From positions 44,319,028 to 44,383,027 of the forward strand of contig OZ024936.1 in the NCBI GenBank assembly GCA_964017235.1: a DNA stretch of 64,000 nt. Reading direction: 5' to 3'. The notes beneath the pieces were generated by a model, which had not been told where the DNA came from, searched no databases, and saw only the letters and a program-made list of their open reading frames with translations. Position 1 is the stretch's first letter, and each line of letters opens with the position of its first letter. The position numbers and the translations under genes are program-made. Below are positions 1 to 64,000 of the stretch, piece after piece. Origin of the DNA: Sabellastarte sp. h YS-2021 (taxonomy: Eukaryota; Annelida; Polychaeta; Sabellida; Sabellidae).

Positions 1-177
1 TAATGTCTGTTAGGCCAAAACTTTGCAAATGAGTGCAAAAATTGTGGTTACAGATTGCACCGTATTTTGGTCATTTTTTTAAGGTCCGGCCCTGTCGAAT
101 ATGTCAGATTTTGCAAGTTTTATTTACCCTTAATTTTTCCCCAGTACTCATTCTATTACAACCTCTGAGCTTAGTAA
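1..177 (+). repeat. Half-monomer A (177 bp)
   Basis: This is the first half of the 353-bp unit. It starts TAATGTCTGTTAGGCC and ends before the second TAATGT at 178. It aligns along its whole length with half B with only small gaps. I estimate identity by eye at around 60% overall, higher at the TAATGT start, in the core (83-112) and in the terminal AACCTCTGAG. The T7 tract just before the core is found only in this half. Between types it varies at GCAAATGAG / GCATATGATT / GTAAATGAG / GGAAATGATT, at TTGCACCGTA / TTCCACCATA, and at GTTTTATTT / GTTTAATTT. The length of about 177 bp is close to one nucleosome plus linker, as in several centromeric satellites. That functional reading is inference. 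Confidence 0.85.
83..112 (+). other. Conserved GC-rich core, half A
   Basis: This 30-bp segment includes TCCGGCCCTGTCGAA and ends CAGATTTT. It matches the half B core at 25 of 30 positions, well above the rest of the two halves. It is little changed among monomers: CCAGCCC in type n, GTCCGTCCC in a few type i copies, TATGGCAG in type l. Bases 85-99, read on the minus strand, match 7 of the 9 fixed positions of the CENP-B box consensus. By my estimate a match that good is expected about once per 353-bp monomer by chance, so it is weak evidence. A protein-binding role is inference from conservation only. Confidence 0.6.
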
Positions 178-353
178 TAATGTTTGTAAGGCCTAAAATT
201 TATGTCCGAATGCAAAATCTCGGCTCCAGATGGCACTGTAATTTTGTCTGCTTTCCAGGGCCGGCACTGTCAAAAATGGCAGATTTTTCCAAGTGTTATT
301 TTCTATTCATTGTCGCCAAATACTCGCTCAGTAAGAACCCCTGAGTGCAGTAG
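178..353 (+). repeat. Half-monomer B (176 bp)
   Basis: This is the second half of the unit, starting TAATGTTTGTAAGGCC, which matches the half A start at 12 of 14 positions for TAATGTCTGTTAGG versus TAATGTTTGTAAGG. In place of the A-half T7 tract it has CTGCTTTCCAGG. Its 3' end carries AACCTCTGAG in several types, the same string that ends half A. Type-diagnostic sites are GGCCTAAAA / GGTCTAAAA / GACCTAAAA, CTCGGCTCC / CTTGGCTCC / CTCGGCTCTAG, GGCCGGC / GGCCGTC / GGCCGTAAC, TGTTATTTT / TGTTCTTTT and the last 12 bases. The present dimer therefore arose from an older single ~177-bp repeat whose two copies diverged before the 353-bp form was amplified. Confidence 0.85.
258..287 (+). other. Conserved GC-rich core, half B
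   Basis: This is the counterpart of the core at 83-112, spaced 175 bp from it. It contains GGCCGGCACTGTCAAAAATG followed by GCAGATTTT. In types d, i, n and q it reads GTCGAAAATGG or GGCGAAAATGG, which restores the CGAA found in half A. Types b, e and j have GGCCGTCACTG. Type g has GGCCGTCACTG in its early form and GGCCGTAACTG in its later form. The diverged monomer at 32472 has CATCGCCGGCACTTTCGAAA. The GC-rich block followed by CAGATTTT is kept in both halves, which sets it apart from the surrounding AT-rich sequence. Confidence 0.55.
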
Positions 354-3300
354 TAATGTCTGTTAGGCCAAAACTTTGTAAATGAGTGCAAAAATTGTGG
401 TTACAGATTGCACCGTATTTTGGTCATTTTTTTAAGGTCCGGCCCTGTCGAATATGTCAGATTTTACAAGTTTTATTTACCCTTAATTTTTGCCCAGTAC
501 TCATTCTATTACAACCTCTGAGCTTAGTTATAATGTTTGTAAGGTCTAAAATTTATGTCCGAATGCAAAATCTCGGCTCTAGATGGCACTGTAATTTTGT
601 CTGCTTTCCAGGGCCGTCACTGTCAAAAATGGCAGATTTTTCCAAGTGTTATTTTCTATTCATTGTCACCCAATACTCGCTCAGTAAGAACATCTGATGC
701 AGTACTAATGTCTGTTAGGCCAAAAGTTTGCAAATGAGTGCAAAAATTGTGGTTACAGATTCCACCATATTTTTGTCATTTTTTTAAGGTCCGGCCCTGT
801 CGAATATGTCAGATTTTGCAAGTTTAATTTACCCTTAATTTTTCCCCAGTACTCATTCTATTACAACCTCTGAGCTTAGTAATAATGTTTGTAAGGCCTA
901 AAATTTATGTCCGAATGCAAAATCTCGGCTCCAGATGGCACTGTAATATTGTCTGCTTTCCAGGGCCGGCACTGTCAAAAATGGCAGATTTTTCCAAGTG
1001 TTCTTTTCTATTCATTGTCGCCCAATACTCGCTCAGTAAGAATCCCTGAGTGCAGTAGTAATGTCGGTTAGACCAAAACTTTGCATATGATTGCAAAAAT
1101 TGTGGTTACAGATTGCACCGTATTTTGGTCATTTTTTTAAGGTCCGGCCCTGTCGAATATGTCAGATTTTGCAAGTTTTATTTACCCTTACTTTTTGCCC
1201 AGTATTCATTCTGTTACAACCACTGAGCTTAGTTATAATGTTTGTAAGGCCTAAAATTTATGTCCGAATGCAAAATCTTGGCTCCAGATGGCACTGTAAT
1301 TTTGTCTGCTTTCCAGGGCCGGCACTGTCGAAAATGGCAGATTTTTCCAAGTGTTATTTTCTATTCATTGTCGCCAAATACTCGCTCAGTAAGAACCTCT
1401 GAGTGCAGTAGTAATGTCTGTTAGGCCAAAACTTTGCAAATGAGTGCAAAAATTGTGGTTACAGATTGCAACGTATTTTGGTCATTTTTTTAAGGTCCGG
1501 CCCTGTCGAATATGTCAGATTTTGCAAGTTTTATTTACCCTTAATTTTTCCCCAGTACTCATTCTATTACAACCTCTGAGCTTAGTTATAATGTTTGTAA
1601 GGTCTAAAATTTATGTCCGAATGCAAAATCTCGGCTCCAGATGGCACTGTAATTTTGTCTGCTTTCCAGGGCCGTCACTGTCAAAAATGGCAGATTTTTC
1701 CAAGTGTTATTTTCTATTCATTGTCACCCAATACTCGCTCAGTAAGAACATCTGATGCAGTACTAATGTCTGTTAGGCCAAAAGTTTGCAAATGAGTGCA
1801 AAAATTGTGGTTACAGATTCCACCATATTTTTGTCATTTTTTTAAGGTCCGGCCCTGTCGAATCTGTCAGATTTTGCAAGTTTAATTTACCCTTAATTTT
1901 TCCCCAGTACTCATTCTATTACAACCTCTGAGCTTAGTAATAATGTTTGTAAGGTCTAAAATTTATGTCCGAATGCAAAATCTCGGCTCCAGATGGCACT
2001 GTAATTTTGTCTGCTTTCCAGGGCCGGCACTGTCAAAAATGGCAGATTTTTCCAAGTGTTATTTTCTATTCATTGTCGCCAAATACTCGTTCAGTAAGAA
2101 CCCCTAAGTGCAGTAGTAATGTCTGTTAGGCCAAAACTTTGTAAATGAGTGCAAAAATTGTGGTTACAGATTGCACCGTATTTTGGTCATTTTTTTAAGG
2201 TCCGGCCCTGTCGAATATGTCAGATTTTACAAGTTTTATTTACCCTTAATTTTTGCCCATTACTCATTCTATTACAACCTCTGAGCTTAGTTATAATGTT
2301 TGTAAGGTCTAAAATTTATGTCCGAATGCAAAATCTCGGCTCCAGATGGCGCTGTAATTTTGTCTGCTTTCCAGGGCCGTCACTGTCAAAAATGGCAGAT
2401 TTTTCCAAGTGTTATTTTCTATTCATTGTCACCCAATACTCGCTCAGTAAAAACATCTGAGTGCAGTACTAATGTCTGTTAGGCCAAAAGTTTGCAAATG
2501 AGTGCAAAAATTGTGGTTACAGATTCCACCATATTTTTGTCATTTTTTTAAGGTCCGGCCCTGTCGAATATGTCAGATTTTGCAAGTTTAATTTACCCTT
2601 AATTTTTCCCCAGTACTCATTCTATTACAACCTCTGAGCTTAGTAATAATGTTTGTAAGACCTAAAATTTATGTCTAAATGCAAAATCTCGGCTCCAGAT
2701 GGCACTGTAATTTTGTCTGCTTTCCAGGGCCGGCACTGTCAAAAATGGCAGATTTTTCCAAGTGTTCTTTTCTATTCATTGTCGCCCAATACTCGCTCAG
2801 TAAGAATCCCTGAGTGCAGTAGTAATGTCTGTTAGGCCAAAACTTTGCATATGATTGCAAAAATTGTGGTTACAGATTGCACCGTATTTTGGTCATTTTT
2901 TTAAGGTCCGTCCCTGTCGAATATGTCAGATTTTGCAAGTTTTATTTACCCTTACTTTTTGCCCAGTATTCATTCTATTACAACCACTGAGCTTAGTTAT
3001 AATGTTTGTAAGGCCTAAAATTTATGTCCGAATGTAAAATCTTGGCTCCAGATGGCACTGTAATTTTGTCTGCTTTCCAGGGCCGGCACTGGCGAAAATG
3101 GCAGATTTTTCCAAGTGTTATTTTCTATTCATTGTCGCCCAATACTCGCTCAGTAAGAACCTCTGAGTGCAGTACTAATGTCTGTTAGGCCAAAAGTTTG
3201 CAAATGAGTGCAAAAATTGTGGTTACAGATTCCACCATATTTTTGTCATTTTTTTAAGGTCCGGCCCTGTCGAATATGTCAGATTTTGCAAGTTTAATTT

Positions 3301-4234
3301 ACCCTTAATTTTTCCCCAGTACTCATTCTATTACAACCTCTGAGCTTAGTAATAATGTTTGTAAGGTCTAAAATTTATGTCCGAATGCAAAATCTCGGCT
3401 CCAGATGGCACTGTAATTTTGTCTGCTTTCCAGGGCCGTCACTGTCAAATATGGCAGATTTTTCCAAGTGTTATTTTCTATTCATTGTCACCCAATACTC
3501 GCTCAGTAAGAACATCTGAGTGCAGTACTAATGTCTGTTAGGCCAAAACTTTGGAAATGATTGCAAAAATTGTGGTTACAGATTCCACCATATTTTTGTC
3601 ATTTTTTTAAGGTCCGGCCCTGTCGAATATGTCAGATTTTGCAAGTTTAATTTACCCTTAATTTTTCCCCAGTACTCATTCTATTACAACCTCTGAGCTT
3701 AGTAATAATGTTTGTAAGGCCTAAAATTTATGTCCGAATGCAAAATCTCGGCTCCAGATGGCACTGTAATTTTGTCTGCTTTCCAGGGCCGGCACTGTCA
3801 AAAATGGCAGATTTTTCCAAGTGTTCTTTTCTATTCATTGTCGCCCAATACTCGCTCAGTAAGAATCCCTGAGTGCAGTAGTAATGTCGGTTAGACCAAA
3901 ACTTTGCATATGATTGCAAAAATTGTGGTTACAGATTGCACCGTATTTTGGTCATTTTTTTAAGGTCCGGCCCTGTCGAATATGTCAGATTTTGCAAGTT
4001 TTATTTACCCTTACTTTTTGCCCAGTATTCATTCTGTTACAACCACTGAGCTTAGTTATAATGTTTGTAAGGCCTAAAATTTATGTCCGAATGCAAAATC
4101 TTGGCTCCAGATGGCACTGTAATTTTGTCTGCTTTCCAGGGCCGGCACTGTCGAAAATGGCAGATTTTTCCAAGTGTTATTTTCTATTCATTGTCGCCAA
4201 ATACTCGCTCAGTAAGAACCTCTGAGTGCAGTAG

Positions 4235-7200
4235 TAATGTCTGTTAGGCCAAAACTTTGCAAATGAGTGCAAAAATTGTGGTTACAGATTGCACCGTATT
4301 TTGGTCATTTTTTTAAGGTCCGGCCCTGTCGAATATGTCAGATTTTGCAAGTTTTATTTACCCTTAATTTTTCCCCAGTACTCATTCTATTACAACCTCT
4401 GAGCTTAGTAATAATGTTTGTAAGGCCTAAAATTTATGTCCGAATGCAAAATCTCGGCTCCAGATGGCACTGTAATTTTGTCTGCTTTCCAGGTCCGGCA
4501 CTGTCAAAAATGGCAGATTTTTCCAAGTGTTATTTTCTATTCATTGTCGCCAAATACTCGCTCAGTAAGAACCCCTAAGTGCAGTAGTAATGTCTGTTAG
4601 GCCAAAACTTTGTAAATGAGTGCAAAAATTGTGGTTACAGATTGCACCGTATTTTGGTCATTTTTTTAAGGTCCGGCCCTGTCGAATATGTCAGATTTTA
4701 CAAGTTTTATTTACCCTTAATTTTTGCCCAGTACTCATTCTATTACAACCTCTGAGCTTAGTTATAATGTTTGTAAGGTCTAAAATTTATGTCCGAATGC
4801 AAAATCTCGGCTCTAGATGGCACTATAATTTTGTCTGCTTTCCAGGGCCGTCACTGTCAAAAATGGCAGATTTTTCCAAGTGTTATTTTCTATTCATTGT
4901 CACCCAATACTCGCTCAGTAAGAACATCTGATGCAGTACTAATGTCTGTTAGGCCAAAAGTTTGCAAATGAGTGCAAAAATTGTGGTTACAGATTCCACC
5001 ATATTTTTGTCATTTTTTTAAGGTCCGGCCCTGTCGAATATGTCAGATTTTGCAAGTTTAATTTACCCTTAATTTTTCCCCAGTACTCATTCTATTACAA
5101 CCTCTGAGCTTAGTAATAATGTTTGTAAGGCCTAAAATTTATGTCCGAATGCAAAATCTCGGCTCCAGATGGCACTGTAATATTGTCTGCTTTCCAGGGC
5201 CGGCACTGTCAAAAATGGCAGATTTTTCCAAGTGTTCTTTTCTATTCATTGTCGCCCAATACTCGCTCAGTAAGAATCCCTGAGTGCAGTAGTAATGTCG
5301 GTTAGACCAAAACTTTGCATATGATTGCAAAAATTGTGGTTACAGATTGCACCGTATTTTGGTCATTTTTTTAAGGTCCGGCCCTGTCGAATATGTCAGA
5401 TTTTGCAAGTTTTATTTACCCTTACTTTTTGCCCAGTATTCATTCTGTTACAACCACTGAGCTTAGTTATAATGTTTGTAAGGCCTAAAATTTATGTCCG
5501 AATGCAAAATCTTGGCTCCAGATGGCACTGTAATTTTGTCTGCTTTCCAGGGCCGGCACTGTCGAAAATGGCAGATTTTTCCAAGTGTTATTTTCTATTC
5601 ATTGTCGCCAAATACTCGCTCAGTAAGAACCTCTGAGTGCAGTAGTAATGTCTGTTAGGCCAAAACTTTGCAAATGAGTGCAAAAATTGTGGTTACAGAT
5701 TGCACCGTATTTTGGTCATTTTTTTAAGGTCCGGCCCTGTCGAATATGTCAGATTTTGCAAGTTTTATTTACCCTTAATTTTTCCCCAGTACTCATTCTA
5801 TTACAACCTCTGAGCTTAGTTATAATGTTTGTAAGGTCTAAAATTTATGTCCGAATGCAAAATCTCGGCTCCAGATGGCACTGTAATTTTGTCTGCTTTC
5901 CAGGGCCGTCACTGTCAAAAATGGCAGATTTTTCCAAGTGTTATTTTCTATTCATTGTCACCCAATACTCGCTCAGTAAGAACATCTGATGCAGTACTAA
6001 TGTCTGTTAGGCCAAAAGTTTGCAAATGAGTGCAAAAATTGTGGTTACAGATTCCACCATATTTTTGTCATTTTTTTAAGGTCCGGCCCTGTCGAATATG
6101 TCAGATTTTGCAAGTTTAATTTACCCTTAATTTTTCCCCAGTACTCATTCTATTACAACCTCTGAGCTTAGTAATAATGTTTGTAAGGTCTAAAATTTAT
6201 GTCCGAATGCAAAATCTCGGCTCCAGATGGCACTGTAATTTTGTCTGCTTTCCAGGGCCGTCACTGTCAAATATGGCAGATTTTTCCAAGTGTTATTTTC
6301 TATTCATTGTCACCCAATACTCGCTCAGTAAGAACATCTGAGTGCAGTACTAATGTCTGTTAGGCCAAAACTTTGGAAATGATTGCAAAAATTGTGGTTA
6401 CAGATTCCACCATATTTTTGTCATTTTTTTAAGGTCCGGCCCTGTCGAATATGTCAGATTTTGCAAGTTTAATTTACCCTTAATTTTTCCCCAGTACTCA
6501 TTCTATTACAACCTCTGAGCTTAGTAATAATGTTTGTAAGGCCTAAAATTTATGTCCGAATGCAAAATCTCGGCTCCAGATGGCACTGTAATTTTGTCTG
6601 CTTTCCAGGGCCGGTACTGTCAAAAATGGCAGATTTTTCCAAGTGTTCTTTTCTATTCATTGTCGCCCAATACTCGCTCAGTAAGAATCCCTGAGTGCAG
6701 TACTAATGTCTGTTAGGCCAAAAGTTTGCAAATGAGTGCAAAAATTGTGGTTACAGATTCCACCATATTTTTTGTCATTTTTTAAAGGTCCGGCCCTGTC
6801 GAATATGGCAGATTTTGCAAGTTTAATTTACCCTTAATTTTTCCCCAGTACTCATTCTATTACAACCTCTGAGCTTAGTAATAATGTTTGTAAGGTCTAA
6901 AATTTATGTCCGAATGCAAAATCTCGGCTCCAGATGGCACTGTAATTTTGTCTGCTTTCCAGGGCCGGCACTGTCAAAAATGGCAGATTTTTCCAAGTGT
7001 TATTTTCTATTCATTGTCGCCAAATACTCGCTCAGTAAGAACCCCTAAGTGCAGTAGTAATGTCTGTTAGGCCAAAACTTTGTAAATGAGTGCAAAAATT
7101 GTGGTTACAGATTGCACCGTATTTTGGTCATTTTTTTAAGGTCCGGCCCTGTCGAATATGTCAGATTTTACAAGTTTTATTTACCCTTAATTTTTGCCCA

Positions 7201-8822
7201 TTACTCATTCTATTACAACCTCTGAGCTTAGTTATAATGTTTGTAAGGTCTAAAATTTATGTCCGAATGCAAAATCTCGGCTCCAGATGGCGCTGTAATT
7301 TTGTCTGCTTTCCAGGGCCGTCACTGTCAAAAATGGCAGATTTTTCCAAGTGTTATTTTCTATTCATTGTCACCCAATACTCGCTCAGTAAGAACATCTG
7401 AGTGCAGTACTAATGTCTGTTAGGCCAAAAGTTTGCAAATGAGTGCAAAAATTGTGGTTACAGATTCCACCATATTTTTGTCATTTTTTTAAGGTCCGGC
7501 CCTGTCGAATATGTCAGATTTTGCAAGTTTAATTTACCCTTAATTTTTCCCCAGTACTCATTCTATTACAACCTCTGAGCTTAGTAATAATGTTTGTAAG
7601 ACCTAAAATTTATGTCTAAATGCAAAATCTCGGCTCCAGATGGCACTGTAATTTTGTCTGCTTTCCAGGGCCGGCACTGTCAAAAATGGCAGATTTTTCC
7701 AAGTGTTCTTTTCTATTCATTGTCGCCCAATACTCGCTCAGTAAGAATCCCTGAGTGCAGTAGTAATGTCTGTTAGGCCAAAACTTTGCATATGATTGCA
7801 AAAATTGTGGTTACAGATTGCACCGTATTTTGGTCATTTTTTTAAGGTCCGGCCCTGTCGAATATGTCAGATTTTGCAAGTTTTATTTACCCTTACTTTT
7901 TGCCCAGTATTCATTCTATTACAACCACTGAGCTTAGTTATAATGTTTGTAAGGCCTAAAATTTATGTCCGAATGTAAAATCTTGGCTCCAGATGGCACT
8001 GTAATTTTGTCTGCTTTCCAGGGCCGGCACTGGCGAAAATGGCAGATTTTTCCAAGTGTTATTTTCTATTCATTGTCGCCCAATACTCGCTCAGTAAGAA
8101 CCTCTGAGTGCAGTACTAATGTCTGTTAGGCCAAAAGTTTGCAAATGAGTGCAAAAATTGTGGTTACAGATTCCACCATATTTTTGTCATTTTTTTAAGG
8201 TCCGGCCCTGTCGAATATGTCAGATTTTGCAAGTTTAATTTACCCTTAATTTTTCCCCAGTACTCATTCTATTACAACCTCTGAGCTTAGTAATAATGTT
8301 TGTAAGGTCTAAAATTTATGTCCGAATGCAAAATCTCGGCTCCAGATGGCACTGTAATTTTGTCTGCTTTCCAGGGCCGTCACTGTCAAATATGGCAGAT
8401 TTTTCCAAGTGTTATTTTCTATTCATTGTCACCCAATACTCGCTCAGTAAGAACATCTGAGTGCAGTACTAATGTCTGTTAGGCCAAAACTTTGGAAATG
8501 ATTGCAAAAATTGTGGTTACAGATTCCACCATATTTTTGTCATTTTTTTAAGGTCCGGCCCTGTCGAATATGTCAGATTTTGCAAGTTTAATTTACCCTT
8601 AATTTTTCCCCAGTACTCATTCTATTACAACCTCTGAGCTTAGTAATAATGTTTGTAAGGCCTAAAATTTATGTCCGAATGCAAAATCTCGGCTCCAGAT
8701 GGCACTGTAATATTGTCTGCTTTCCAGGGCCGGCACTGTCAAAAATGGCAGATTTTTCCAAGTGTTCTTTTCTATTCATTGTCGCCCAATACTCGCTCAG
8801 TAAGAATCCCTGAGTGCAGTAG
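4235..8822 (+). repeat. 13-monomer block a-b-c-d-e-j-k-l-g-h-i-j-k
   Basis: This is a relative of the 12-monomer block in which f is replaced by j-k-l and the final d follows separately. Its 4,588 bp fit 13 x 353 with two one-base-short monomers (b, e) and one one-base-long monomer (l, starting near 6705, with changed T-run lengths TATTTTTTGTCATTTTTTAAAGG). The last monomer (8470-8822) has the TAATATTGTC variant otherwise seen in type c. A complete second copy lies at 37768-42355. Confidence 0.8.
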
Positions 8823-11647
8823 TAATGTCGGTTAGACCAAAACTTTGCATATGATTGCAAAAATTGTGGTTACAGATTGCACCGTATTTTGGTCATTTTT
8901 TTAAGGTCCGGCCCTGTCGAATATGTCAGATTTTGCAAGTTTTATTTACCCTTACTTTTTGCCCAGTATTCATTCTGTTACAACCACTGAGCTTAGTTAT
9001 AATGTTTGTAAGGCCTAAAATTTATGTCCGAATGCAAAATCTTGGCTCCAGATGGCACTGTAATTTTGTCTGCTTTCCAGGGCCGGCACTGTCGAAAATG
9101 GCAGATTTTTCCAAGTGTTATTTTCTATTCATTGTCGCCAAATACTCGCTCAGTAAGAACCTCTGAGTGCAGTAGTAATGTCTGTTAGGCCAAAACTTTG
9201 CAAATGAGTGCAAAAATTGTGGTTACAGATTGCACCGTATTTTGGTCATTTTTTTAAGGTCCGGCCCTGTCGAATATGTCAGATTTTGCAAGTTTTATTT
9301 ACCCTTAATTTTTCCCCAGTACTCATTCTATTACAACCTCTGAGCTTAGTAATAATGTTTGTAAGGCCTAAAATTTATGTCCGAATGCAAAATCTCGGCT
9401 CCAGATGGCACTGTAATTTTGTCTGCTTTCCAGGGCCGGTACTGTCAAAAATGGCAGATTTTTCCAAGTGTTCTTTTCTATTCATTGTCGCCCAATACTC
9501 GCTCAGTAAGAATCCCTGAGTGCAGTAGTAATGTCGGTTAGGCCAAAACTTTGCATATGATTGCAAAAATTGTGGTTACAGATTGCACCATATTTTGGTC
9601 ATTTTTTTAAGGTCCAGCCCTGTCGAATATGTCAGATTTTGCAAGTTTTATTTACCCTTACTTTTTGCCCAGTATTCATTCTATTACAACCACTGAGCTT
9701 AGTTATAATGTTTGTAAGGCCTAAAATTTATGTCCGAATGCAAAATCTTGGCTCCAGATGGCACTGTAATTTTGTCTGCTTTCCAGGGCCGGCACTGTCG
9801 AAAATGGCAGATTTTTCCAAGTGTTATTTTCTATTCATTGTCGCCCAATACTCGCTCAGTAAGAACCTCTGAGTGCAGTACTAATGTCTGTTAGGCCAAA
9901 AGTTTGCAAATGAGTGCAAAAATTGTGGTTACAGATTCCACCATATTTTTTGTCATTTTTTAAAGGTCCGGCCCTGTCGAATATGGCAGATTTTGCAAGT
10001 TTAATTTACCCTTAATTTTTCCCCAGTACTCATTCTATTACAACCTCTGAGCTTAGTAATAATGTTTGTAAGGCCTAAAATTTATGTCCGAATGCAAAAT
10101 CTCGGCTCCAGATGGCACTGTAATTTTGTCTGCTTTCCAGGGCCGGCACTGTCAAAAATGGCAGATTTTTCCAAGTGTTATTTTCTATTCATTGTCGCCA
10201 AATACTCGCTCAGTAAGAACCCCTAAGTGCAGTAGTAATGTCTGTTAGGCCAAAACTTTGTAAATGAGTGCAAAAATTGTGGTTACAGATTGCACCGTAT
10301 TTTGGTCATTTTTTTAAGGTCCGGCCCTGTCGAATATGTCAGATTTTACAAGTTTTATTTACCCTTAATTTTTGCCCATTACTCATTCTATTACAACCTC
10401 TGAGCTTAGTTATAATGTTTGTAAGGTCTAAAATTTATGTCCGAATGCAAAATCTCGGCTCCAGATGGCACTGTAATTTTGTCTGCTTTCCAGGGCCGTA
10501 ACTGTCAAAAATGGCAGATTTTTCCAAGTGTTATTTTCTATTCATTGTCACCCAATACTCGCTCAGTAAGAACATCTGAGTGCAGTACTAATGTCTGTTA
10601 GGCCAAAAGTTTGCAAATGAGTGCAAAAATTGTGGTTACAGATTCCACCATATTTTTGTCATTTTTTTAAGGTCCGGCCCTGTCGAATATGTCAGATTTT
10701 GCAAGTTTAATTTACCCTTAATTTTTCCCCAGTACTCATTCTATTACAACCTCTGAGCTTAGTAATAATGTTTGTAAGACCTAAAATTTATGTCTAAATG
10801 CAAAATCTCGGCTCCAGATGGCACTGTAATTTTGTCTGCTTTCCAGGGCCGGCACTGTCAAAAATGGCAGATTTTTCCAAGTGTTCTTTTCTATTCATTG
10901 TCGCCCAATACTCGCTCAGTAAGAATCCCTGAGTGCAGTAGTAATGTCTGTTAGGCCAAAACTTTGCATATGATTGCAAAAATTGTGGTTACAGATTGCA
11001 CCGTATTTTGGTCATTTTTTTAAGGTCCGGCCCTGTCGAATATGTCAGATTTTGCAAGTTTTATTTACCCTTACTTTTTGCCCAGTATTCATTCTGTTAC
11101 AACCACTGAGCTTAGTTATAATGTTTGTAAGGCCTAAAATTTATGTCCGAATGCAAAATCTTGGCTCCAGATGGCACTGTAATTTTGTCTGCTTTCCAGG
11201 GCCGGCACTGTCGAAAATGGCAGATTTTTCCAAGTGTTATTTTCTATTCATTGTCGCCAAATACTCGCTCAGTAAGAACCTCTGAGTGCAGTAGTAATGT
11301 CTGTTAGGCCAAAACTTTGCAAATGAGTGCAAAAATTGTGGTTACAGATTGCACCGTATTTTGGTCATTTTTTTAAGGTCCGGCCCTGTCGAATATGTCA
11401 GATTTTGCAAGTTTTATTTACCCTTAATTTTTCCCCAGTACTCATTCTATTACAACCTCTGAGCTTAGTAATAATGTTTGTAAGGCCTAAAATTTATGTC
11501 CGAATGCAAAATCTCGGCTCCAGATGGCACTGTAATTTTGTCTGCTTTCCAGGGCCGGCACTGTCAAAAATGGCAGATTTTTCCAAGTGTTATTTTCTAT
11601 TCATTGTCGCCAAATACTCGCTCAGTAAGAACCCCTGAGTGCAGTAG
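8823..11647 (+). repeat. Partial 10-mer HOR d-m-n-l-g-h-d-a
   Basis: These are the first eight monomers of the 10-mer HOR. Type m (9176) ends in TGTTCTTTT and AATCCCTGAG. Type n (9529) is marked by GGTCCAGCCC. Type l is 354 bp. Type g here has GGCCGTAACTG near 10497. The expected b is replaced by a b/c hybrid at 11648. The stretch from about 7.6 to 11.8 kb recurs 5,648 bp (exactly 16 x 353) downstream. Confidence 0.8.
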
Positions 11648-12000
11648 TAATGTCTGTTAGGCCAAAACTTTGTAAATGAGTGCAAAAATTGTGGTTACAG
11701 ATTGCACCGTATTTTGGTCATTTTTTTAAGGTCCGGCCCTGTCGAATATGTCAGATTTTACAAGTTTTATTTACCCTTAATTTTTGCCCAGTACTCATTC
11801 TATTACAACCTCTGAGCTTAGTTATAATGTTTGTAAGGTCTAAAATTTATGTCCGAATGCAAAATCTCGGCTCTAGATGGCACTGTAATATTGTCTGCTT
11901 TCCAGGGCCGGCACTGTCAAAAATGGCAGATTTTTCCAAGTGTTCTTTTCTATTCATTGTCGCCCAATACTCGCTCAGTAAGAATCCCTGAGTGCAGTAG
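11648..12000 (+). repeat. Hybrid monomer b/c
   Basis: The first part is type b (GTAAATGAG, GATTTTACAAG, GGTCTAAAA, GGCTCTAG). From TAATATTGTC on it is type c (GGCCGGCACTG, TGTTCTTTT, AATCCCTGAG). The switch lies between GGCTCTAG and TAATATTGTC, about 15 bp. Copies are at 21531-21883 and 45181-45533. It marks an in-register exchange that removed one monomer. Confidence 0.75.
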
Positions 12001-13058
12001 TAATGTCGGTTAGACCAAAACTTTGCATATGATTGCAAAAATTGTGGTTACAGATTGCACCGTATTTTGGTCATTTTTTTAAGGTCCGGCCCTGTCGAAT
12101 ATGTCAGATTTTGCAAGTTTAATTTACCCTTACTTTTTGCCCAGTACTCATTCTATTACAACCACTGAGCTTAGTAATAATGTTTGTAAGGCCTAAAATT
12201 TATGTCCGAATGCAAAATCTTGGCTCCGGATGGCACTGTAATTTTGTCTGCTTTCCAGGGCCGGCACTGTCGAAAATGGCAGATTTTTCCAAGTGTTATT
12301 TTCTATTCATTGTCGCCAAATACTCGCTCAGTAAGAACCTCTGAGTGCAGTAGTAATGTCTGTTAGGCCAAAACTTTGCAAATGAGTGCAAAAATTGTGG
12401 TTACAGATTGCACCGTATTTTGGTCATTTTTTTAAGGTCCGGCCCTGTCGAATATGTCAGATTTTGCAAGTTTTATTTACCCTTAATTTTTCCCCAGTAC
12501 TCATTCTATTACAACCTCTGAGCTTAGTTATAATGTTTGTAAGGTCTAAAATTTATGTCCGAATGCAAAATCTCGGCTCCAGATGGCACTGTAATTTTGT
12601 CTGCTTTCCAGGGCCGTCACTGTCAAAAATGGCAGATTTTTCCAAGTGTTATTTTCTATTCATTGTCACCCAATACTCGCTCAGTAAGAACATCTGATGC
12701 AGTACTAATGTCTGTTAGGCCAAAAGTTTGCAAATGAGTGCAAAAATTGTGGTTACAGATTCCACCATATTTTTGTCATTTTTTTAAGGTCCGGCCCTGT
12801 CGAATATGTCAGATTTTGCAAGTTTAATTTACCCTTAATTTTTCCCCAGTACTCATTCTATTACAACCTCTGAGCTTAGTAATAATGTTTGTAAGGTCTA
12901 AAATTTATGTCCGAATGCAAAATCTCGGCTCCAGATGGCACTGTAATTTTGTCTGCTTTCCAGGGCCGTCACTGTCAAATATGGCAGATTTTTCCAAGTG
13001 TTATTTTCTATTCATTGTCACCCAATACTCGCTCAGTAAGAACATCTGAGTGCAGTAC

Positions 13059-13411
13059 TAATGTCTGTTAGGCCAAAACTTTGGAAATGATTGCAAAAAT
13101 TGTGGTTACAGATTCCACCATATTTTTGTCATTTTTTTAAGGTCCGGCCCTGTCGAATATGTCAGATTTTGCAAGTTTAATTTACCCTTAATTTTTCCCC
13201 AGTACTCATTCTATTACAACCTCTGAGCTTAGTAATAATGTTTGTAAGACCTAAAATTTATGTCTAAATGCAAAATCTCGGCTCCAGATGGCACTGTAAT
13301 TTTGTCTGCTTTCCAGGGCCGGCACTGTCAAAAATGGCAGATTTTTCCAAGTGTTCTTTTCTATTCATTGTCGCCCAATACTCGCTCAGTAAGAATCCCT
13401 GAGTGCAGTAG
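13059..13411 (+). repeat. Hybrid monomer k/h
   Basis: The A half is type k (CTTTGGAAATGATTGC). The B half is type h (GTAAGACCTAAAATTTATG then TCTAAATGC). The halves k and h are identical between these markers, so the switch lies in roughly 13090-13245. Copies are at 22942-23294 and 46592-46944. Confidence 0.7.
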
Positions 13412-53500: not shown

Positions 53501-54390
53501 TGTCTAAATGCAAAATCTCGGCTCCAGATGGCACTGTAATTTTGTCTGCTTTCCAGGGCCGGCACTGTCAAAAATGGCAGATTTTTCCAAGTGTTCTTTT
53601 CTATTCATTGTCGCCCAATACTCGCTCAGTAAGAATCCCTGAGTGCAGTAGTAATGTCTGTTAGGCCAAAACTTTGCATATGATTGCAAAAATTGTGGTT
53701 ACAGATTGCACCGTATTTTGGTCATTTTTTTAAGGTCCGGCCCTGTCGAATATGTCAGATTTTGCAAGTTTTATTTACCCTTACTTTTTGCCCAGTATTC
53801 ATTCTGTTACAACCACTGAGCTTAGTTATAATGTTTGTAAGGCCTAAAATTTATGTCCGAATGCAAAATCTTGGCTCCAGATGGCACTGTAATTTTGTCT
53901 GCTTTCCAGGGCCGGCACTGTCGAAAATGGCAGATTTTTCCAAGTGTTATTTTCTATTCATTGTCGCCAAATACTCGCTCAGTAAGAACCTCTGAGTGCA
54001 GTAGTAATGTCTGTTAGGCCAAAACTTTGCACATGAGTGCAAAAATTGTGGTTACAGATTGCACCGTATTTTGGTCATTTTTTTAAGGTCCGGCCCTGTC
54101 GAATATGTCAGATTTTGCAAGTTTTATTTACCCTTAATTTTTCCCCAGTACTCATTCTATTACAACCTCTGAGCTTAGTAATAATGTTTGTAAGGCCTAA
54201 AATTTATGTCCGAATGCAAAATCTCGGCTCCAGATGGCACTGTAATTTTGTCTGCTTTCCAGGGCCGGCACTGTCAAAAATGGCAGATTTTTCCAAGTGT
54301 TATTTTCTATTCATTGTCGCCAAATACTCGCTCAGTAAGAACCCCTGAGTGCAGTAGTAATGTCTGTTAGGCCAAAACTTTGTAAATGAG
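44508..54390 (+). repeat. 28-monomer block, copy 3 (9,883 bp)
   Basis: This is the only copy of the block in the second large segment. It matches copy 1 at +33,533 and copy 2 at +23,650. It carries the private A at 53208. Flanks on both sides match the unduplicated junctions: a complete type d on the left and an ordinary b on the right. Confidence 0.85.
48004..51533 (+). repeat. 10-mer higher-order repeat, full copy (3,530 bp)
   Basis: The order is d-m-n-l-g-h-d-a-b-c. It matches 14471-18000 at a shift of 33,533 bp and 24354-27883 at a shift of 23,650 bp. It is the first full 10-mer inside the third 28-monomer block. Confidence 0.83.
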
Positions 54391-55062
54391 TGCAAAAATT
54401 GTGGTTACAGATTGCACCGTATTTTGGTCATTTTTTTAAGGTCCGGCCCTGTCGAATATGTCAGATTTTACAAGTTTTATTTACCCTTAATTTTTGCCCA
54501 GTACTCATTCTATTACAACCTCTGAGCTTAGTTATAATGTTTGTAAGGTCTAAAATTTATGTCCGAATGCAAAATCTCGGCTCTAGATGGCACTGTAATT
54601 TTGTCTGCTTTCCAGGGCCGTCACTGTCAAAAATGGCAGATTTTTCCAAGTGTTATTTTCTATTCATTGTCACCCAATACTCGCTCAGTAAGAACATCTG
54701 ATGCAGTACTAATGTCTGTTAGGCCAAAAGTTTGCAAATGAGTGCAAAAATTGTGGTTACAGATTCCACCATATTTTTGTCATTTTTTTAAGGTCCGGCC
54801 CTGTCGAATATGTCAGATTTTGCAAGTTTAATTTACCCTTAATTTTTCCCCAGTACTCATTCTATTACAACCTCTGAGCTTAGTAATAATGTTTGTAAGG
54901 CCTAAAATTTATGTCCGAATGCAAAATCTCGGCTCCAGATGGCACTGTAATATTGTCTGCTTTCCAGGGTCGGCACTGTCAAAAATGGCAGATTTTTCCA
55001 AGTGTTCTTTTCTATTCATTGTCGCCCAATACTCGCTCAGTAAGAATCCCTGAGTGCAGTAG
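51534..55062 (+). repeat. 10-mer higher-order repeat, full copy (3,529 bp)
   Basis: This has the one-T deletion in type n and the GGGTCGGC marker at 54970, as in 27884-31412. It has a private A at 53208 (GGCCATAACTG; other copies GGCCGTAACTG). The first part also matches 18001-20857. Confidence 0.83.
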
Positions 55063-55415
55063 TAATGTCGGTTAGACCAAAACTTTGCATATGATTGCAA
55101 AAATTGTGGTTACAGATTGCACCGTATTTTGGTCATTTTTTTAAGGTCCGGCCCTGTCGAATATGTCAGATTTTGCAAGTTTTATTTACCCTTACTTTTT
55201 GCCCAGTATTCATTCTGTTACAACCACTGAGCTTAGTTATAATGTTTGTAAGGCCTAAAATTTATGTCCGAATGCAAAATCTTGGCTCCAGATGGCACTG
55301 TAATTTTGTCTGCTTTCCAGGGCCGGCACTGTCGAAAATGGCAGATTTTTCCAAGTGTTATTTTCTATTCATTGTCGCCAAATACTCGCTCAGTAAGAAC
55401 CTCTGAGTGCAGTAG

Positions 55416-58240
55416 TAATGTCGGTTAGGCCAAAACTTTGCAAATGATTGCAAAAATTGTGGTTACAGATTGCACAGTATTTTGGTCATTTTTTTAAGGT
55501 CCGGCCCTGTCGAATATGTCAGAATTTGCAAGTTTTATTTACCCTTAATTTTTCCCCAGTACTCATTCTATTACAACCTGTGAGCTTAGTAATAATGTTT
55601 GTAAGGCCTAAAATTTATGTCCGAATGCAAAATCTCGGCTCCAGATGGCACTGTAATTTTGTCTGCTTTCCAGGGCCGGCACTGTCAAAAATGGCAGATT
55701 TTTCCAAGTGTTCTTTTCTATTCATTTTTGCCCAATAGTCGCTCAGTAAGAATCCCTGAGTGCAGTAGTAATGTCGGTTAGGCCAAAACTTTGCAAATGA
55801 TTGCAAAAATTGTGGTTACAGATTGCACCGTATTTTGGTCATTTTTTTAAGGTCCGGCCCTGTCGAATATGTCAGATTTTGCAAGTTTTATTTACCCTTA
55901 CTTTTTGCCCATTATTCATTCTATTACAACCACTGAGCTTAGTTATAATGTTTGTAAGGCCTAAAATTTATGTCCGAATGCAAAATCTTGGCTCCGGATG
56001 GCACTGTAATTTTGTCTGCTTTCCAAGGCCGGCACTGTCGAAAATGGCAGATTTTTCCAAGTGTTATTTTCTATTCATTGTCGCCCAATACTCGCTCAGT
56101 AAGAACCTCTGAGTGCAGTACTAATGTCTGTTAGGCCAAAAGTTTGCAAATGAGTGCAAAAATTGTGGTTACAGATCGCACCATATTTTTGTCATTTTTT
56201 AAGGTCCGGCCCTGTCAAATATGGTAGATTTTGCAAGTTTCATTTACCCTTAATATTTACCCAGTACTCATTATATTAAATCCTCTGAGCTTAGTAATAA
56301 TGTTTGCAAGGCCTAAAATTGATGTCCGAATGCAAAATCTCGGCTCCAGATGGCACTGTAATTTTGTCTGCTTTCCATCGCCGGCACTTTCGAAAATGGC
56401 AGATTTTTCCAAGTGTTATTTTCTATTCATTGTCGCCCAATACTCGCTCTGTAAGAACCTCTGAGTGCAGTACTAATGTCTGTTAGGCCAAAAGTTTGCA
56501 AATGAGTGCAAAAATTGTGGTTACAGATTCCACCATATTTTTGTTATTTTTTTTAAGGTCCGGCCCTGTTGAATATGGCAGATTTTGCAAGTTTAATTTA
56601 CCCTTAATTTTTCCCCAGTACTCATTCTATTACAACCTGTGAGCTTAGTAATAATGTTTGTAAGGCCTAAAATTTATGTCCGAATGCAAAATCTCGGCTC
56701 CAGATGGCACTGTAATTTTGTCTGCTTTCCAGGGCCGGCACTGTCAAAAATGGCAGATTTTTCCAAGTGTTCTTTTCTATTCATTTTTGCCCAATAGTCG
56801 CTCAGTAAGAATCCCTGAGTGCAGTAGTAATGTCGGTTAGGCCAAAACTTTGCAAATGATTGCAAAAATTGTGGTTACAGATTGCACCGTATTTTGGTCA
56901 TTTTTTTAAGGTCCGGCCCTGTCGAATATGTCAGATTTTGCAAGTTTTATTTACCCTTAATTTTTGCCCAGTACTCATTCTATTACAACCTCTGAGCTTA
57001 GTAATAATGTTTGTAAGACCTAAAATTTATGTCTAAATGCAAAATCTCGGCTCCAGATGGCACTGTAATTTTGTCTGCTTTCCAGGGCCGGCACTGTCAA
57101 AAATGGCAGATTTTTCCAAGTGTTCTTTTCTATTCATTGTCGCCCAATACTCGCTCAGTAAGAATCCCTGAGTGCAGTAGTAATGTCTGTTAGGCCAAAA
57201 CTTTGCATATGATTGCAAAAATTGTGGTTACAGATTGCACCGTATTTTGGTCATTTTTTTAAGGTCCGGCCCTGTCGAATATGTCAGATTTTGCAAGTTT
57301 TATTTACCCTTACTTTTTGCCCAGTATTCATTCTATTACAACCACTGAGCTTAGTTATAATGTTTGTAAGGCCTAAAATTTATGTCCGAATGTAAAATCT
57401 TGGCTCCAGATGGCACTGTAATTTTGTCTGCTTTCCAGGGCCGGCACTGGCGAAAATGGCAGATTTTTCAAAGTGTTATTTTCTATTCATTGTCGCCCAA
57501 TACTCGCTCAGTAAGAACCTCTGAGTGCAGTACTAATGTCTGTTAGGCCAAAAGTTTGCAAATGAGTGCAAAAATTGTGGTTACAGATTCCACCATATTT
57601 TTTGTCATTTTTTAAAGGTCCGGCCCTGTCGACTATGGCAGATTTTGCAAGTTTAATTTACCCTTAATTTTTCCCCAGTACTCATTCTATTACAACCTCT
57701 GAGCTTAGTAATAATGTTTGTAAGGCCTAAAATTTATGTCCGAATGCAAAATCTCGGCTCCAGATGGCACTGTAATTTTGTCTGCTTTCCAGGGCCTGCA
57801 CTGTCAAAAATGGCAGATTTTTCCAAGTGTTATTTTCTATTCATTGTCGCCAAATACTCGCTCAGTAAGAACCCCTGAGTGCAGTAGTAATGTCTGTTAG
57901 GCCAAAAGTTTGCAAATGAGTGCAAAAATTGTGGTTACAGATTCCACCATATTTTTGTCATTTTTTTAAGGTCCGGCCCTGTCGAATATGGCAGATTTTG
58001 CAAGTTTTATTTACCCTTAATTTTTGCCCAGTATTCATTCTATTACAACCTCTGAGCTTAGTTATAATGTTTGTAAGGTCTAAAATTTATGTCCGAATGC
58101 AAAATCTCGGCTCCAGATGGCACTGTAATTTTGTCTGCTTTCCAGGGCCGGCACTGTCGAAAATGGCAGATTTTTCCAAGTGTTCTTTTCTATTCATTGT
58201 CGCCAAATAGTCGCTCAGTAAGAATCCCTGAGTGCAGTAG
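55416..58240 (+). repeat. Diverged monomer island, copy 2
   Basis: This is the copy of 31766-34590 at exactly +23,650. Every unusual variant I checked recurs, including the T8 run and the one-base-short and one-base-long monomers. The island diverged first and was duplicated later as part of the large segment. Confidence 0.8.
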
Positions 58241-58273
58241 TAATGTCGGTTAGGCCAAAACTTTGCATATGAT

Positions 58274-61200
58274 TGCAAAAATTGTGGTTACAGATTGCAC
58301 CGTATTTTGGTCATTTTTTTAAGGTCCGGCCCTGTCGAATATGTCAGATTTTACAAGTTTTATTTACCCTTAATTTTTGCCCATTACTCATTCTATTACA
58401 ACCTCTGAGCTTAGTTATAATGTTTGTAAGGTCTAAAATTTATGTCCGAATGCAAAATCTCGGCTCCAGATGGCACTGTAATTTTGTCTGCTTTCCAGGG
58501 CCGTAACTGTCAAAAATGGCAGATTTTTCCAAGTGTTATTTTCTATTCATTGTCACCCAATACTCGCTCAGTAAGAACATCTGAGTGCAGTACTAATGTC
58601 TGTTAGGCCAAAAGTTTGCAAATGAGTGCAAAAATTGTGGTTACAGATTCCACCATATTTTTGTCATTTTTTTAAGGTCCGGCCCTGTCGAATATGTCAG
58701 ATTTTGCAAGTTTAATTTACCCTTAATTTTTCCCCAGTACTCATTCTATTACAACCTCTGAGCTTAGTAATAATGTTTGTAAGACCTAAAATTTATGTCT
58801 AAATGCAAAATCTCGGCTCCAGATGGCACTGTAATTTTGTCTGCTTTCCAGGGCCGGCACTGTCAAAAATGGCAGATTTTTCCAAGTGTTCTTTTCTATT
58901 CATTGTCGCCCAATACTCGCTCAGTAAGAATCCCTGAGTGCAGTAGTAATGTCTGTTAGGCCAAAACTTTGCATATGATTGCAAAAATTGTGGTTACAGA
59001 TTGCACCGTATTTTGGTCATTTTTTTAAGGTCCGGCCCTGTCGAATATGTCAGATTTTGCAAGTTTTATTTACCCTTACTTTTTGCCCAGTATTCATTCT
59101 GTTACAACCACTGAGCTTAGTTATAATGTTTGTAAGGCCTAAAATTTATGTCCGAATGCAAAATCTTGGCTCCAGATGGCACTGTAATTTTGTCTGCTTT
59201 CCAGGGCCGGCACTGTCGAAAATGGCAGATTTTTCCAAGTGTTATTTTCTATTCATTGTCGCCAAATACTCGCTCAGTAAGAACCTCTGAGTGCAGTAGT
59301 AATGTCTGTTAGGCCAAAACTTTGCACATGAGTGCAAAAATTGTGGTTACAGATTGCACCGTATTTTGGTCATTTTTTTAAGGTCCGGCCCTGTCGAATA
59401 TGTCAGATTTTGCAAGTTTTATTTACCCTTAATTTTTCCCCAGTACTCATTCTATTACAACCTCTGAGCTTAGTAATAATGTTTGTAAGGCCTAAAATTT
59501 ATGTCCGAATGCAAAATCTCGGCTCCAGATGGCACTGTAATTTTGTCTGCTTTCCAGGGCCGGCACTGTCAAAAATGGCAGATTTTTCCAAGTGTTATTT
59601 TCTATTCATTGTCGCCAAATACTCGCTCAGTAAGAACCCCTGAGTGCAGTAGTAATGTCTGTTAGGCCAAAACTTTGTAAATGAGTGCAAAAATTGTGGT
59701 TACAGATTGCACCGTATTTTGGTCATTTTTTTAAGGTCCGGCCCTGTCGAATATGTCAGATTTTACAAGTTTTATTTACCCTTAATTTTTGCCCAGTACT
59801 CATTCTATTACAACCTCTGAGCTTAGTTATAATGTTTGTAAGGTCTAAAATTTATGTCCGAATGCAAAATCTCGGCTCTAGATGGCACTGTAATTTTGTC
59901 TGCTTTCCAGGGCCGTCACTGTCAAAAATGGCAGATTTTTCCAAGTGTTATTTTCTATTCATTGTCACCCAATACTCGCTCAGTAAGAACATCTGATGCA
60001 GTACTAATGTCTGTTAGGCCAAAAGTTTGCAAATGAGTGCAAAAATTGTGGTTACAGATTCCACCATATTTTTGTCATTTTTTTAAGGTCCGGCCCTGTC
60101 GAATATGTCAGATTTTGCAAGTTTAATTTACCCTTAATTTTTCCCCAGTACTCATTCTATTACAACCTCTGAGCTTAGTAATAATGTTTGTAAGGCCTAA
60201 AATTTATGTCCGAATGCAAAATCTCGGCTCCAGATGGCACTGTAATATTGTCTGCTTTCCAGGGCCGGCACTGTCAAAAATGGCAGATTTTTCCAAGTGT
60301 TCTTTTCTATTCATTGTCGCCCAATACTCGCTCAGTAAGAATCCCTGAGTGCAGTAGTAATGTCGGTTAGACCAAAACTTTGCATATGATTGCAAAAATT
60401 GTGGTTACAGATTGCACCGTATTTTGGTCATTTTTTTAAGGTCCGGCCCTGTCGAATATGTCAGATTTTGCAAGTTTTATTTACCCTTACTTTTTGCCCA
60501 GTATTCATTCTGTTACAACCACTGAGCTTAGTTATAATGTTTGTAAGGCCTAAAATTTATGTCCGAATGCAAAATCTTGGCTCCAGATGGCACTGTAATT
60601 TTGTCTGCTTTCCAGGGCCGGCACTGTCGAAAATGGCAGATTTTTCCAAGTGTTATTTTCTATTCATTGTCGCCAAATACTCGCTCAGTAAGAACCTCTG
60701 AGTGCAGTAGTAATGTCTGTTAGGCCAAAACTTTGCAAATGAGTGCAAAAATTGTGGTTACAGATTGCACCGTATTTTGGTCATTTTTTTAAGGTCCGGC
60801 CCTGTCGAATATGTCAGATTTTGCAAGTTTTATTTACCCTTAATTTTTCCCCAGTACTCATTCTATTACAACCTCTGAGCTTAGTAATAATGTTTGTAAG
60901 GCCTAAAATTTATGTCCGAATGCAAAATCTCGGCTCCAGATGGCACTGTAATTTTGTCTGCTTTCCAGGGCCGGTACTGTCAAAAATGGCAGATTTTTCC
61001 AAGTGTTCTTTTCTATTCATTGTCGCCCAATACTCGCTCAGTAAGAATCCCTGAGTGCAGTAGTAATGTCGGTTAGGCCAAAACTTTGCATATGATTGCA
61101 AAAATTGTGGTTACAGATTGCACCATATTTTGGTCATTTTTTTAAGGTCCAGCCCTGTCGAATATGTCAGATTTTGCAAGTTTTATTTACCCTTACTTTT

Positions 61201-64000
61201 TGCCCAGTATTCATTCTATTACAACCACTGAGCTTAGTTATAATGTTTGTAAGGCCTAAAATTTATGTCCGAATGCAAAATCTTGGCTCCAGATGGCACT
61301 GTAATTTTGTCTGCTTTCCAGGGCCGGCACTGTCGAAAATGGCAGATTTTCCAAGTGTTATTTTCTATTCATTGTCGCCCAATACTCGCTCAGTAAGAAC
61401 CTCTGAGTGCAGTACTAATGTCTGTTAGGCCAAAAGTTTGCAAATGAGTGCAAAAATTGTGGTTACAGATTCCACCATATTTTTTGTCATTTTTTAAAGG
61501 TCCGGCCCTGTCGAATATGGCAGATTTTGCAAGTTTAATTTACCCTTAATTTTTCCCCAGTACTCATTCTATTACAACCTCTGAGCTTAGTAATAATGTT
61601 TGTAAGGCCTAAAATTTATGTCCGAATGCAAAATCTCGGCTCCAGATGGCACTGTAATTTTGTCTGCTTTCCAGGGCCGGCACTGTCAAAAATGGCAGAT
61701 TTTTCCAAGTGTTATTTTCTATTCATTGTCGCCAAATACTCGCTCAGTAAGAACCCCTAAGTGCAGTAGTAATGTCTGTTAGGCCAAAACTTTGTAAATG
61801 AGTGCAAAAATTGTGGTTACAGATTGCACCGTATTTTGGTCATTTTTTTAAGGTCCGGCCCTGTCGAATATGTCAGATTTTACAAGTTTTATTTACCCTT
61901 AATTTTTGCCCATTACTCATTCTATTACAACCTCTGAGCTTAGTTATAATGTTTGTAAGGTCTAAAATTTATGTCCGAATGCAAAATCTCGGCTCCAGAT
62001 GGCACTGTAATTTTGTCTGCTTTCCAGGGCCGTAACTGTCAAAAATGGCAGATTTTTCCAAGTGTTATTTTCTATTCATTGTCACCCAATACTCGCTCAG
62101 TAAGAACATCTGAGTGCAGTACTAATGTCTGTTAGGCCAAAAGTTTGCAAATGAGTGCAAAAATTGTGGTTACAGATTCCACCATATTTTTGTCATTTTT
62201 TTAAGGTCCGGCCCTGTCGAATATGTCAGATTTTGCAAGTTTAATTTACCCTTAATTTTTCCCCAGTACTCATTCTATTACAACCTCTGAGCTTAGTAAT
62301 AATGTTTGTAAGACCTAAAATTTATGTCTAAATGCAAAATCTCGGCTCCAGATGGCACTGTAATTTTGTCTGCTTTCCAGGGCCGGCACTGTCAAAAATG
62401 GCAGATTTTTCCAAGTGTTCTTTTCTATTCATTGTCGCCCAATACTCGCTCAGTAAGAATCCCTGAGTGCAGTAGTAATGTCTGTTAGGCCAAAACTTTG
62501 CATATGATTGCAAAAATTGTGGTTACAGATTGCACCGTATTTTGGTCATTTTTTTAAGGTCCGGCCCTGTCGAATATGTCAGATTTTGCAAGTTTTATTT
62601 ACCCTTACTTTTTGCCCAGTATTCATTCTGTTACAACCACTGAGCTTAGTTATAATGTTTGTAAGGCCTAAAATTTATGTCCGAATGCAAAATCTTGGCT
62701 CCAGATGGCACTGTAATTTTGTCTGCTTTCCAGGGCCGGCACTGTCGAAAATGGCAGATTTTTCCAAGTGTTATTTTCTATTCATTGTCGCCAAATACTC
62801 GCTCAGTAAGAACCTCTGAGTGCAGTAGTAATGTCTGTTAGGCCAAAACTTTGCACATGAGTGCAAAAATTGTGGTTACAGATTGCACCGTATTTTGGTC
62901 ATTTTTTTAAGGTCCGGCCCTGTCGAATATGTCAGATTTTGCAAGTTTTATTTACCCTTAATTTTTCCCCAGTACTCATTCTATTACAACCTCTGAGCTT
63001 AGTAATAATGTTTGTAAGGCCTAAAATTTATGTCCGAATGCAAAATCTCGGCTCCAGATGGCACTGTAATTTTGTCTGCTTTCCAGGGCCGGCACTGTCA
63101 AAAATGGCAGATTTTTCCAAGTGTTATTTTCTATTCATTGTCGCCAAATACTCGCTCAGTAAGAACCCCTGAGTGCAGTAGTAATGTCTGTTAGGCCAAA
63201 ACTTTGTAAATGAGTGCAAAAATTGTGGTTACAGATTGCACCGTATTTTGGTCATTTTTTTAAGGTCCGGCCCTGTCGAATATGTCAGATTTTACAAGTT
63301 TTATTTACCCTTAATTTTTGCCCAGTACTCATTCTATTACAACCTCTGAGCTTAGTTATAATGTTTGTAAGGTCTAAAATTTATGTCCGAATGCAAAATC
63401 TCGGCTCTAGATGGCACTGTAATTTTGTCTGCTTTCCAGGGCCGTCACTGTCAAAAATGGCAGATTTTTCCAAGTGTTATTTTCTATTCATTGTCACCCA
63501 ATACTCGCTCAGTAAGAACATCTGATGCAGTACTAATGTCTGTTAGGCCAAAAGTTTGCAAATGAGTGCAAAAATTGTGGTTACAGATTCCACCATATTT
63601 TTGTCATTTTTTTAAGGTCCGGCCCTGTCGAATATGTCAGATTTTGCAAGTTTAATTTACCCTTAATTTTTCCCCAGTACTCATTCTATTACAACCTCTG
63701 AGCTTAGTAATAATGTTTGTAAGGCCTAAAATTTATGTCCGAATGCAAAATCTCGGCTCCAGATGGCACTGTAATATTGTCTGCTTTCCAGGGTCGGCAC
63801 TGTCAAAAATGGCAGATTTTTCCAAGTGTTCTTTTCTATTCATTGTCGCCCAATACTCGCTCAGTAAGAATCCCTGAGTGCAGTAGTAATGTCGGTTAGA
63901 CCAAAACTTTGCATATGATTGCAAAAATTGTGGTTACAGATTGCACCGTATTTTGGTCATTTTTTTAAGGTCCGGCCCTGTCGAATATGTCAGATTTTGC
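58274..64000 (+). repeat. Start of a third large segment (partial)
   Basis: This stretch matches 25800-31526 at a shift of 32,474 bp and 49450-55176 at 8,824 bp, including the one-T deletion and the GGGTCGGC marker. The switch from segment II to this copy must lie between 58274 and 59034, where the two parents are identical. The array runs off the end of the window. Confidence 0.75.
60358..63886 (+). repeat. 10-mer higher-order repeat, full copy (3,529 bp)
   Basis: This carries both the one-T deletion in type n and the GGGTCGGC marker (63794), so it is a copy of the 27884 / 51534 lineage at shifts of 32,474 and 8,824 bp. A partial type d monomer follows to the window end. Confidence 0.83.

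Follow-up and report, generated by a model that had tools for sequence, protein, structure and literature searches.

The 64,000-nucleotide stretch of DNA analyzed here (the window) is filled from end to end by a single unbroken head-to-tail satellite array, and the large spacings within it seem to have been left by a few copying events and not by a regular five-level structure. The array carries tandem duplications of near-zero divergence whose junctions are exact hybrid monomers, and it has probably been growing and turning over by out-of-register homologous exchange.

The extent of the array was determined with TRF (1-64000, period 353, 181.3 copies, 94% matches), and monomers were defined by cutting the array at a conserved anchor. 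The array and an example of its monomer are as follows.

1-64000, + strand: satellite array, uninterrupted; full monomers, 181 in number and 352-354 bp long, with a tail of 114 bp.
1-353, + strand: one monomer as an example, made of two halves of 176 and 177 bp (comparison of the halves made on the 181-monomer consensus).

Monomers measured 353 bp (n = 144), 352 bp (n = 22) or 354 bp (n = 15), with a leftover tail of 114 bases, and the 181 full monomers form the long head-to-tail array of uniform monomer length by which eukaryotic satellites are recognized. Pairwise identity among full monomers averaged 95.8%, and only 42 distinct sequences were present among the 181; grouping at a cut of 3.5 differences gave 25 monomer classes. 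The 353-bp monomer is an old, diverged dimer, as the original prediction of a half-monomer of about 177 bp inside a dimeric 353-bp monomer had it. The consensus half-monomers (176 and 177 bp) were identical at 129 of 182 aligned columns, with an alignment score of 147, where 300 shuffles gave a mean of 17 and a maximum of 41; the TRF period was 353, and the 181 monomers were each composed of 176 + 177 bp. Reading frames of at least 90 aa numbered 88, spanned 96-110 aa and recurred in the 353-bp register. In appearance the array is a common type of repetitive and putatively non-genic DNA.

The CpG observed/expected ratio was 0.57 in the window, i.e. depleted, and CpG-type transitions fell at 13 of 81 variable columns; these raw, uncontrolled figures may hint at a host that methylates cytosine. 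In the monomer alignment, the 22 bp of columns 34-55 were invariant across the 42 distinct monomers. A conserved protein-binding box is not claimed, as a longest invariant run of 22 bp was equalled or exceeded in 20% of 2,000 column permutations (p = 0.20). Nor is a single-stranded DNA fold of one monomer claimed (z = -1.57, 6 of 100 shuffles as good).

Spacings were counted over all pairs of equal 40-mers, limited to 40-mers with no more than 60 copies. The commonest were 33533, 23650, 3529, 5648 and 9883 bp; a nearest-copy table of 16- and 24-mers placed 353 on top. The longest exact repeats were 17,690 bp at lag 33533 and 9,962 bp at lag 9883, with 8,700 and 5,826 bp at lag 23650. Together, the top 40-mer spacings and the long exact repeats establish the spacings of 3529/3530, 9883, 23650 and 33533 bp as real, and the large lags are whole numbers of monomers. 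The blocks that underlie them are listed here.

1985-35384, + strand: large segment copy 1, delimited by its match to copy 2; contains two tandem 28-monomer blocks.
35518-59034, + strand: large segment copy 2, with one 28-monomer block; 1 base off over 66 paired monomers.
53208, + strand: the lone base separating the large segments over the 66 paired monomers.
10975-20857, + strand: 28-monomer block (9883 bp), tandem copy one; 9,962-bp exact match at lag 9883.
20858-30740, + strand: 28-monomer block, tandem copy two, identical to copy one.
44508-54390, + strand: 28-monomer block within large segment copy 2; coordinates from lag 33533, 1 base off over 27 monomers compared.
24354-31412, + strand: 10-monomer unit, two tandem copies (m70-79, m80-89); 2 differences over 11 monomers.
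48004-55062, + strand: 10-monomer unit, the corresponding pair within large segment copy 2 (m137-146, m147-156); 3 differences over 11 monomers.
14471-20824, + strand: 10-monomer unit, about 1.8 tandem copies (m42-59).
58594 to the window end: 10-monomer unit, about 1.5 copies.
49450-64000, + strand: tandem duplication of 25 monomers (8824 bp), truncated where the window ends; one mismatch between 49450-55176 and 58274-64000.

Written as class letters, monomers 7-100 consist of a 26-mer, two 28-mers and a 12-mer, and monomers 102-167 of the same parts with only one 28-mer. With one 28-mer set aside, the large segments differed by 1 base over 66 paired monomers, and the two tandem 28-mers showed 0 differences over 27 monomers. 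The claim that the large segments differ by exactly one 28-mer block (33,533 - 23,650 = 9,883) was therefore borne out. Further duplication lags were seen at 14, 16 and 25 monomers, with partial duplications matching at 6 of 14 monomers for the 14-mer and at 11 of 16 for the 16-mer. Each large segment has (at 31766-34590; in copy 2, at 55416-58240) a stretch of eight monomers of classes R, S, T, U, V, I, L and W, of which the six classes R-W are confined to this stretch of the two large copies. Class T, within it, is the most divergent monomer, its nearest class being 24 differences away.

The original prediction had arranged the repeat periods in five cleanly nested levels, higher-order repeats (HORs) among them. 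A HOR unit is one that is repeated many times. Pairs of monomers with no more than 2 differences made up 39/171 at lag 10, 29/153 at lag 28, 42/114 at lag 67 and 53/86 at lag 95, and on the counts at lags 10 and 28 a regular 10-mer or 28-mer HOR was rejected. The lags of 10, 14, 16, 25, 28, 67 and 95 monomers form no series of multiples. The units are nonetheless contained in one another, the 10-mer sitting in the 28-mer and the 28-mer in the 67-mer, in the way that a later duplication encloses earlier ones. Copies were few: about 1.5-2 in tandem per site for the 10-mer, two for the large segment, and for the 28-mer two in tandem plus one in the second large segment. Greedy, largest-first contraction of three tandem duplications (28-, 67- and 10-mer) took the 181 monomers to 76, while lags 14, 16 and 25 overlap the contracted duplications and fit no hierarchy. 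A Willard-type HOR, in which the unit recurs in register many times and its copies are far more alike than the monomers within it, was not found. Sub-unit doubling of the local-nested or cascading kind is present (10-mer in 28-mer in 67-mer), with the larger unit occurring only twice in the window. The earlier reading therefore stands for three points: the monomer is a dimer, the large spacings exist, and the large segments differ by one block. The five-level hierarchy is not supported, since the 10-, 28- and 67/95-monomer units are only about doubled and the extra lags of 14, 16 and 25 are present; the 'clean' nesting fails on the pair counts at lags 10 and 28 and on lags that are not multiples.

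Junctions between blocks were resolved at the level of single monomers, with the following hybrids.

20825-21177, + strand: hybrid m60, 28-mer junction; columns 1-114 = m88, columns 34-355 = m32, 0 differences in each part.
35297-35649, + strand: hybrid m101, large-segment junction; columns 1-271 = m9, columns 224-355 = m6, 0 differences in each part.
58241-58593, + strand: hybrid m166, 25-mer junction; columns 1-61 = m28, columns 34-355 = m141, 0 differences in each part.
34591-34943, + strand: hybrid m99, identical to m166.

The array accordingly contains mosaic monomers, each joined from parts of two others, and the fit is exact in m60, m101 and m166. Under the criterion of no more than 1 difference as a hybrid, with the nearest single class at least 4 away, two-part hybrids made up 11 of the 25 classes, where 200 column permutations gave a mean of 0.685 and a maximum of 4; a class may enter this count both as parent and as product, and the independent events are therefore fewer. 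A looser cut (no more than 3 differences as a hybrid, single class at least 7) gave 5 classes, against a control mean of 0.15 and a maximum of 3. The switch intervals of m60 and m166 take in the invariant columns 34-55. The large segments end unalike: copy 1 ends H-I/F, the I + F hybrid being m101 (35297-35649), and the end of copy 2 (58947-59299) continues H-D into the 25-mer duplication. These unlike edges indicate that one simple tandem duplication is insufficient, and that at least one further exchange or template switch took part.

The exact two-part junction monomers argue for exchange between misaligned homologous monomers. Such out-of-register exchange could be unequal crossing-over, whether between homologues or between sister chromatids, or break-induced copying in which the template is a repeat out of alignment. 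Every exchange would duplicate several whole monomers side by side, with a single hybrid monomer left where the copies meet. The blocks at lags of 10, 14, 16 and 25 monomers would have been formed first, as their traces and the 25-mer junction monomer are found in both large copies. The 67-monomer segment would then have doubled, followed by the 28-monomer block within the left copy. By our inference this order (67-mer, then 28-mer) takes two events, as against three if a 95-mer had doubled after the 28-mer doubling and a block had later been lost.

Three other explanations were weighed against out-of-register exchange. That an assembler made or lost any of the large, near-identical copies, the extra 28-mer in particular, is unlikely. 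The 0 differences between tandem 28-mers (27 monomers) and the 1 difference between large segments (66 monomers) would fit such an error, and the 17,690-bp exact repeat is close to a typical accurate long-read length; at 53208, however, the second large copy has a base of its own, and comparable hybrids of older date are present, arguments that weigh less for the extra 28-mer, since an assembler can also join at homology. A true multi-level array (a HOR of HORs), in which the 28-mer or the 67/95-mer repeats many times beyond the window, seems to us quite improbable. The near-identity of the large copies and the continuation of the 25-mer duplication past the right window end speak for it, but the 10-, 25-, 28- and 67-monomer units have about two tandem copies each within 64 kb (a short window for this question), the lags are not multiples, and at lag 28 the pairs within 2 differences number 29 of 153.

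Amplification through extrachromosomal circles, by rolling-circle copying and re-insertion and not by exchange within the array, would also yield blocks of whole monomers, and satellite circles have been surveyed in plants (PMC2543021). Rolling-circle insertion is expected to leave several tandem copies per unit, however, and the units here are mostly doubled; we regard this route as very improbable.

Random tandem duplication and deletion with mutation were simulated in two versions, which serve as guides and not as tests, since neither matches the observed monomer diversity: mean distinct monomers were 116-146 in version one, well above the observed 42, and 14-29 in version two, below it. 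Nesting, measured strictly, was 2 deep in the observed array, a depth reached in 5-35% of 40 runs at each of 10 settings of version one. Three or more distinct tandem lags of at least 8 monomers arose in 10-50% of 30 runs at each of 15 settings of version two, so several levels are ordinary under random duplication. Tandem lags of at least 60 monomers arose in 0-6.7% of 30 runs at each of the 15 settings of version two, and blocks so large are therefore poorly predicted by the random-duplication model.

The older order beneath the recent duplications was analyzed in the 76 monomers left after contraction; the permutation figures that follow overstate significance, as these monomers are non-independent and still contain older duplications. 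Neighboring monomers differed more than in permuted order (18.85 vs. 15.31, z = 5.2). Monomers at lags 4, 10 and 16 differed less (z = -2.5, -2.1 and -3.4), those at lag 2 were no closer than chance (z = +1.1), those at lags 5 and 8 were further apart (z = +2.1 each), and lag 12 was flat. At 3 of 24 columns tested for alternation, 62-64 of 75 neighbor pairs alternated, with about 38 expected. Grouped into four broad classes, a number picked after viewing cuts into 2, 3, 4, 5, 6 and 8, the monomers showed the order D-C-D-B (1.41 kb) 10 times against 1.2 expected. The older layer is a preferred local order of monomer types and not a standing period; it is perhaps a scrambled tetramer.

Relatives were sought in several collections, with the scope of each search as given. 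No blastn 'distant' match was obtained in phage and plasmid records (1,060 of the 64,000 bases queried), no megablast match in E. coli genomes (2,801 bases queried), no match in viral contigs for 3 patterns, and none in prokaryote genome contigs for one pattern. A second pattern in the genome contigs gave 1 exact 21-base match in a Cytophagales bin, which had no wider similarity and for that reason was taken as chance and not as a relative. These phage, plasmid, E. coli, viral and prokaryote collections would contain a eukaryotic satellite only as contamination. Rfam gave no match in 1-10000 and 28000-40000, and no tRNA was found in the window. Four monomer oligos and two reverse complements had no match in literature text, a weak negative as sequences are seldom printed. 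The most likely position of the array, judged from its type of sequence, would be centromeric or pericentromeric in a eukaryotic genome. The core of the CENP-B box had 0 exact matches in the window with 0.06 expected, so the mark of a CENP-B-binding satellite was not seen and there is no positive sign of centromere function from this motif; its absence is compatible with such function.

The literature search turned up two named 353-bp satellites, Poa-353 and a member of the Drosophila 1.688 family. In Drosophila melanogaster, the 353-bp member of the 1.688 satellite family (PMC8122249, PMC7642928) has the same monomer length, and the likeness drawn here is one of length. Poa-353, a grass satellite with a 353-bp monomer (PMC7670724), also shares the length; against the window, the 4 probe oligos published for it gave at least 7 mismatches on either strand, a fit no better than that of shuffled oligos, and the array was accordingly not placed with Poa-353. 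In make-up, the monomer resembles the 343-bp centromere repeat of New World monkeys, described as two weakly related halves, an old dimer turned monomer (PMC4053949); the dimer-to-monomer arrangement is the same and the length differs.

HORs are widespread in animals and plants: they were reported in 76 of 171 species with Sanger data (PMC4053949) and are therefore not confined to primates, and nematode HOR arrays with conserved junction motifs are on record (PMC3694981). Local nesting and hybrid monomers are already described for human centromeres. In the local-nested HORs of HiCAT (PMC10053651), a sub-unit is tandem-amplified inside a larger unit, and as in the present array a monomer type recurs within one unit through sub-unit amplification; the larger unit has many copies in human and about 2 here. 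The cascading alpha-satellite HORs of human chromosome 15 (PMC11050224) likewise have monomer types that recur in one large unit, giving several sub-periods, but the 15-mer is present there in 429 copies, whereas any large unit here has about 2. Hybrid monomers of human centromeres, which join a prefix and a suffix from two different monomers, are characterized as relatively infrequent (CentromereArchitect, PMC8336445), unlike the 11 of 25 classes found here by a criterion specific to this analysis. Saltatory amplification has been reported in human arrays (PMC11062924).

Knowledge of satellites is unchanged in kind by this array, which is a good small example and not a new structure. A further reading, which we consider possible but doubtful, is that the array belongs to an undescribed satellite family, possibly the host's centromeric repeat, caught in a very recent burst of large-block amplification (28 and 67 monomers), with junctions that are still exact hybrids, over an older scrambled order; if true, it would record, base by base, the beginnings of higher-order structure in a genome outside the primates. 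Provided that the assembly is correct, the junctions of recent large exchanges can be read in the window at base level (28-mer, 0 differences over 27 monomers; 67-mer, 1 over 66), and the size of the blocks and the placing of such junctions would offer a test of models in which satellites grow by unequal exchange, by break-induced copying or through circles.
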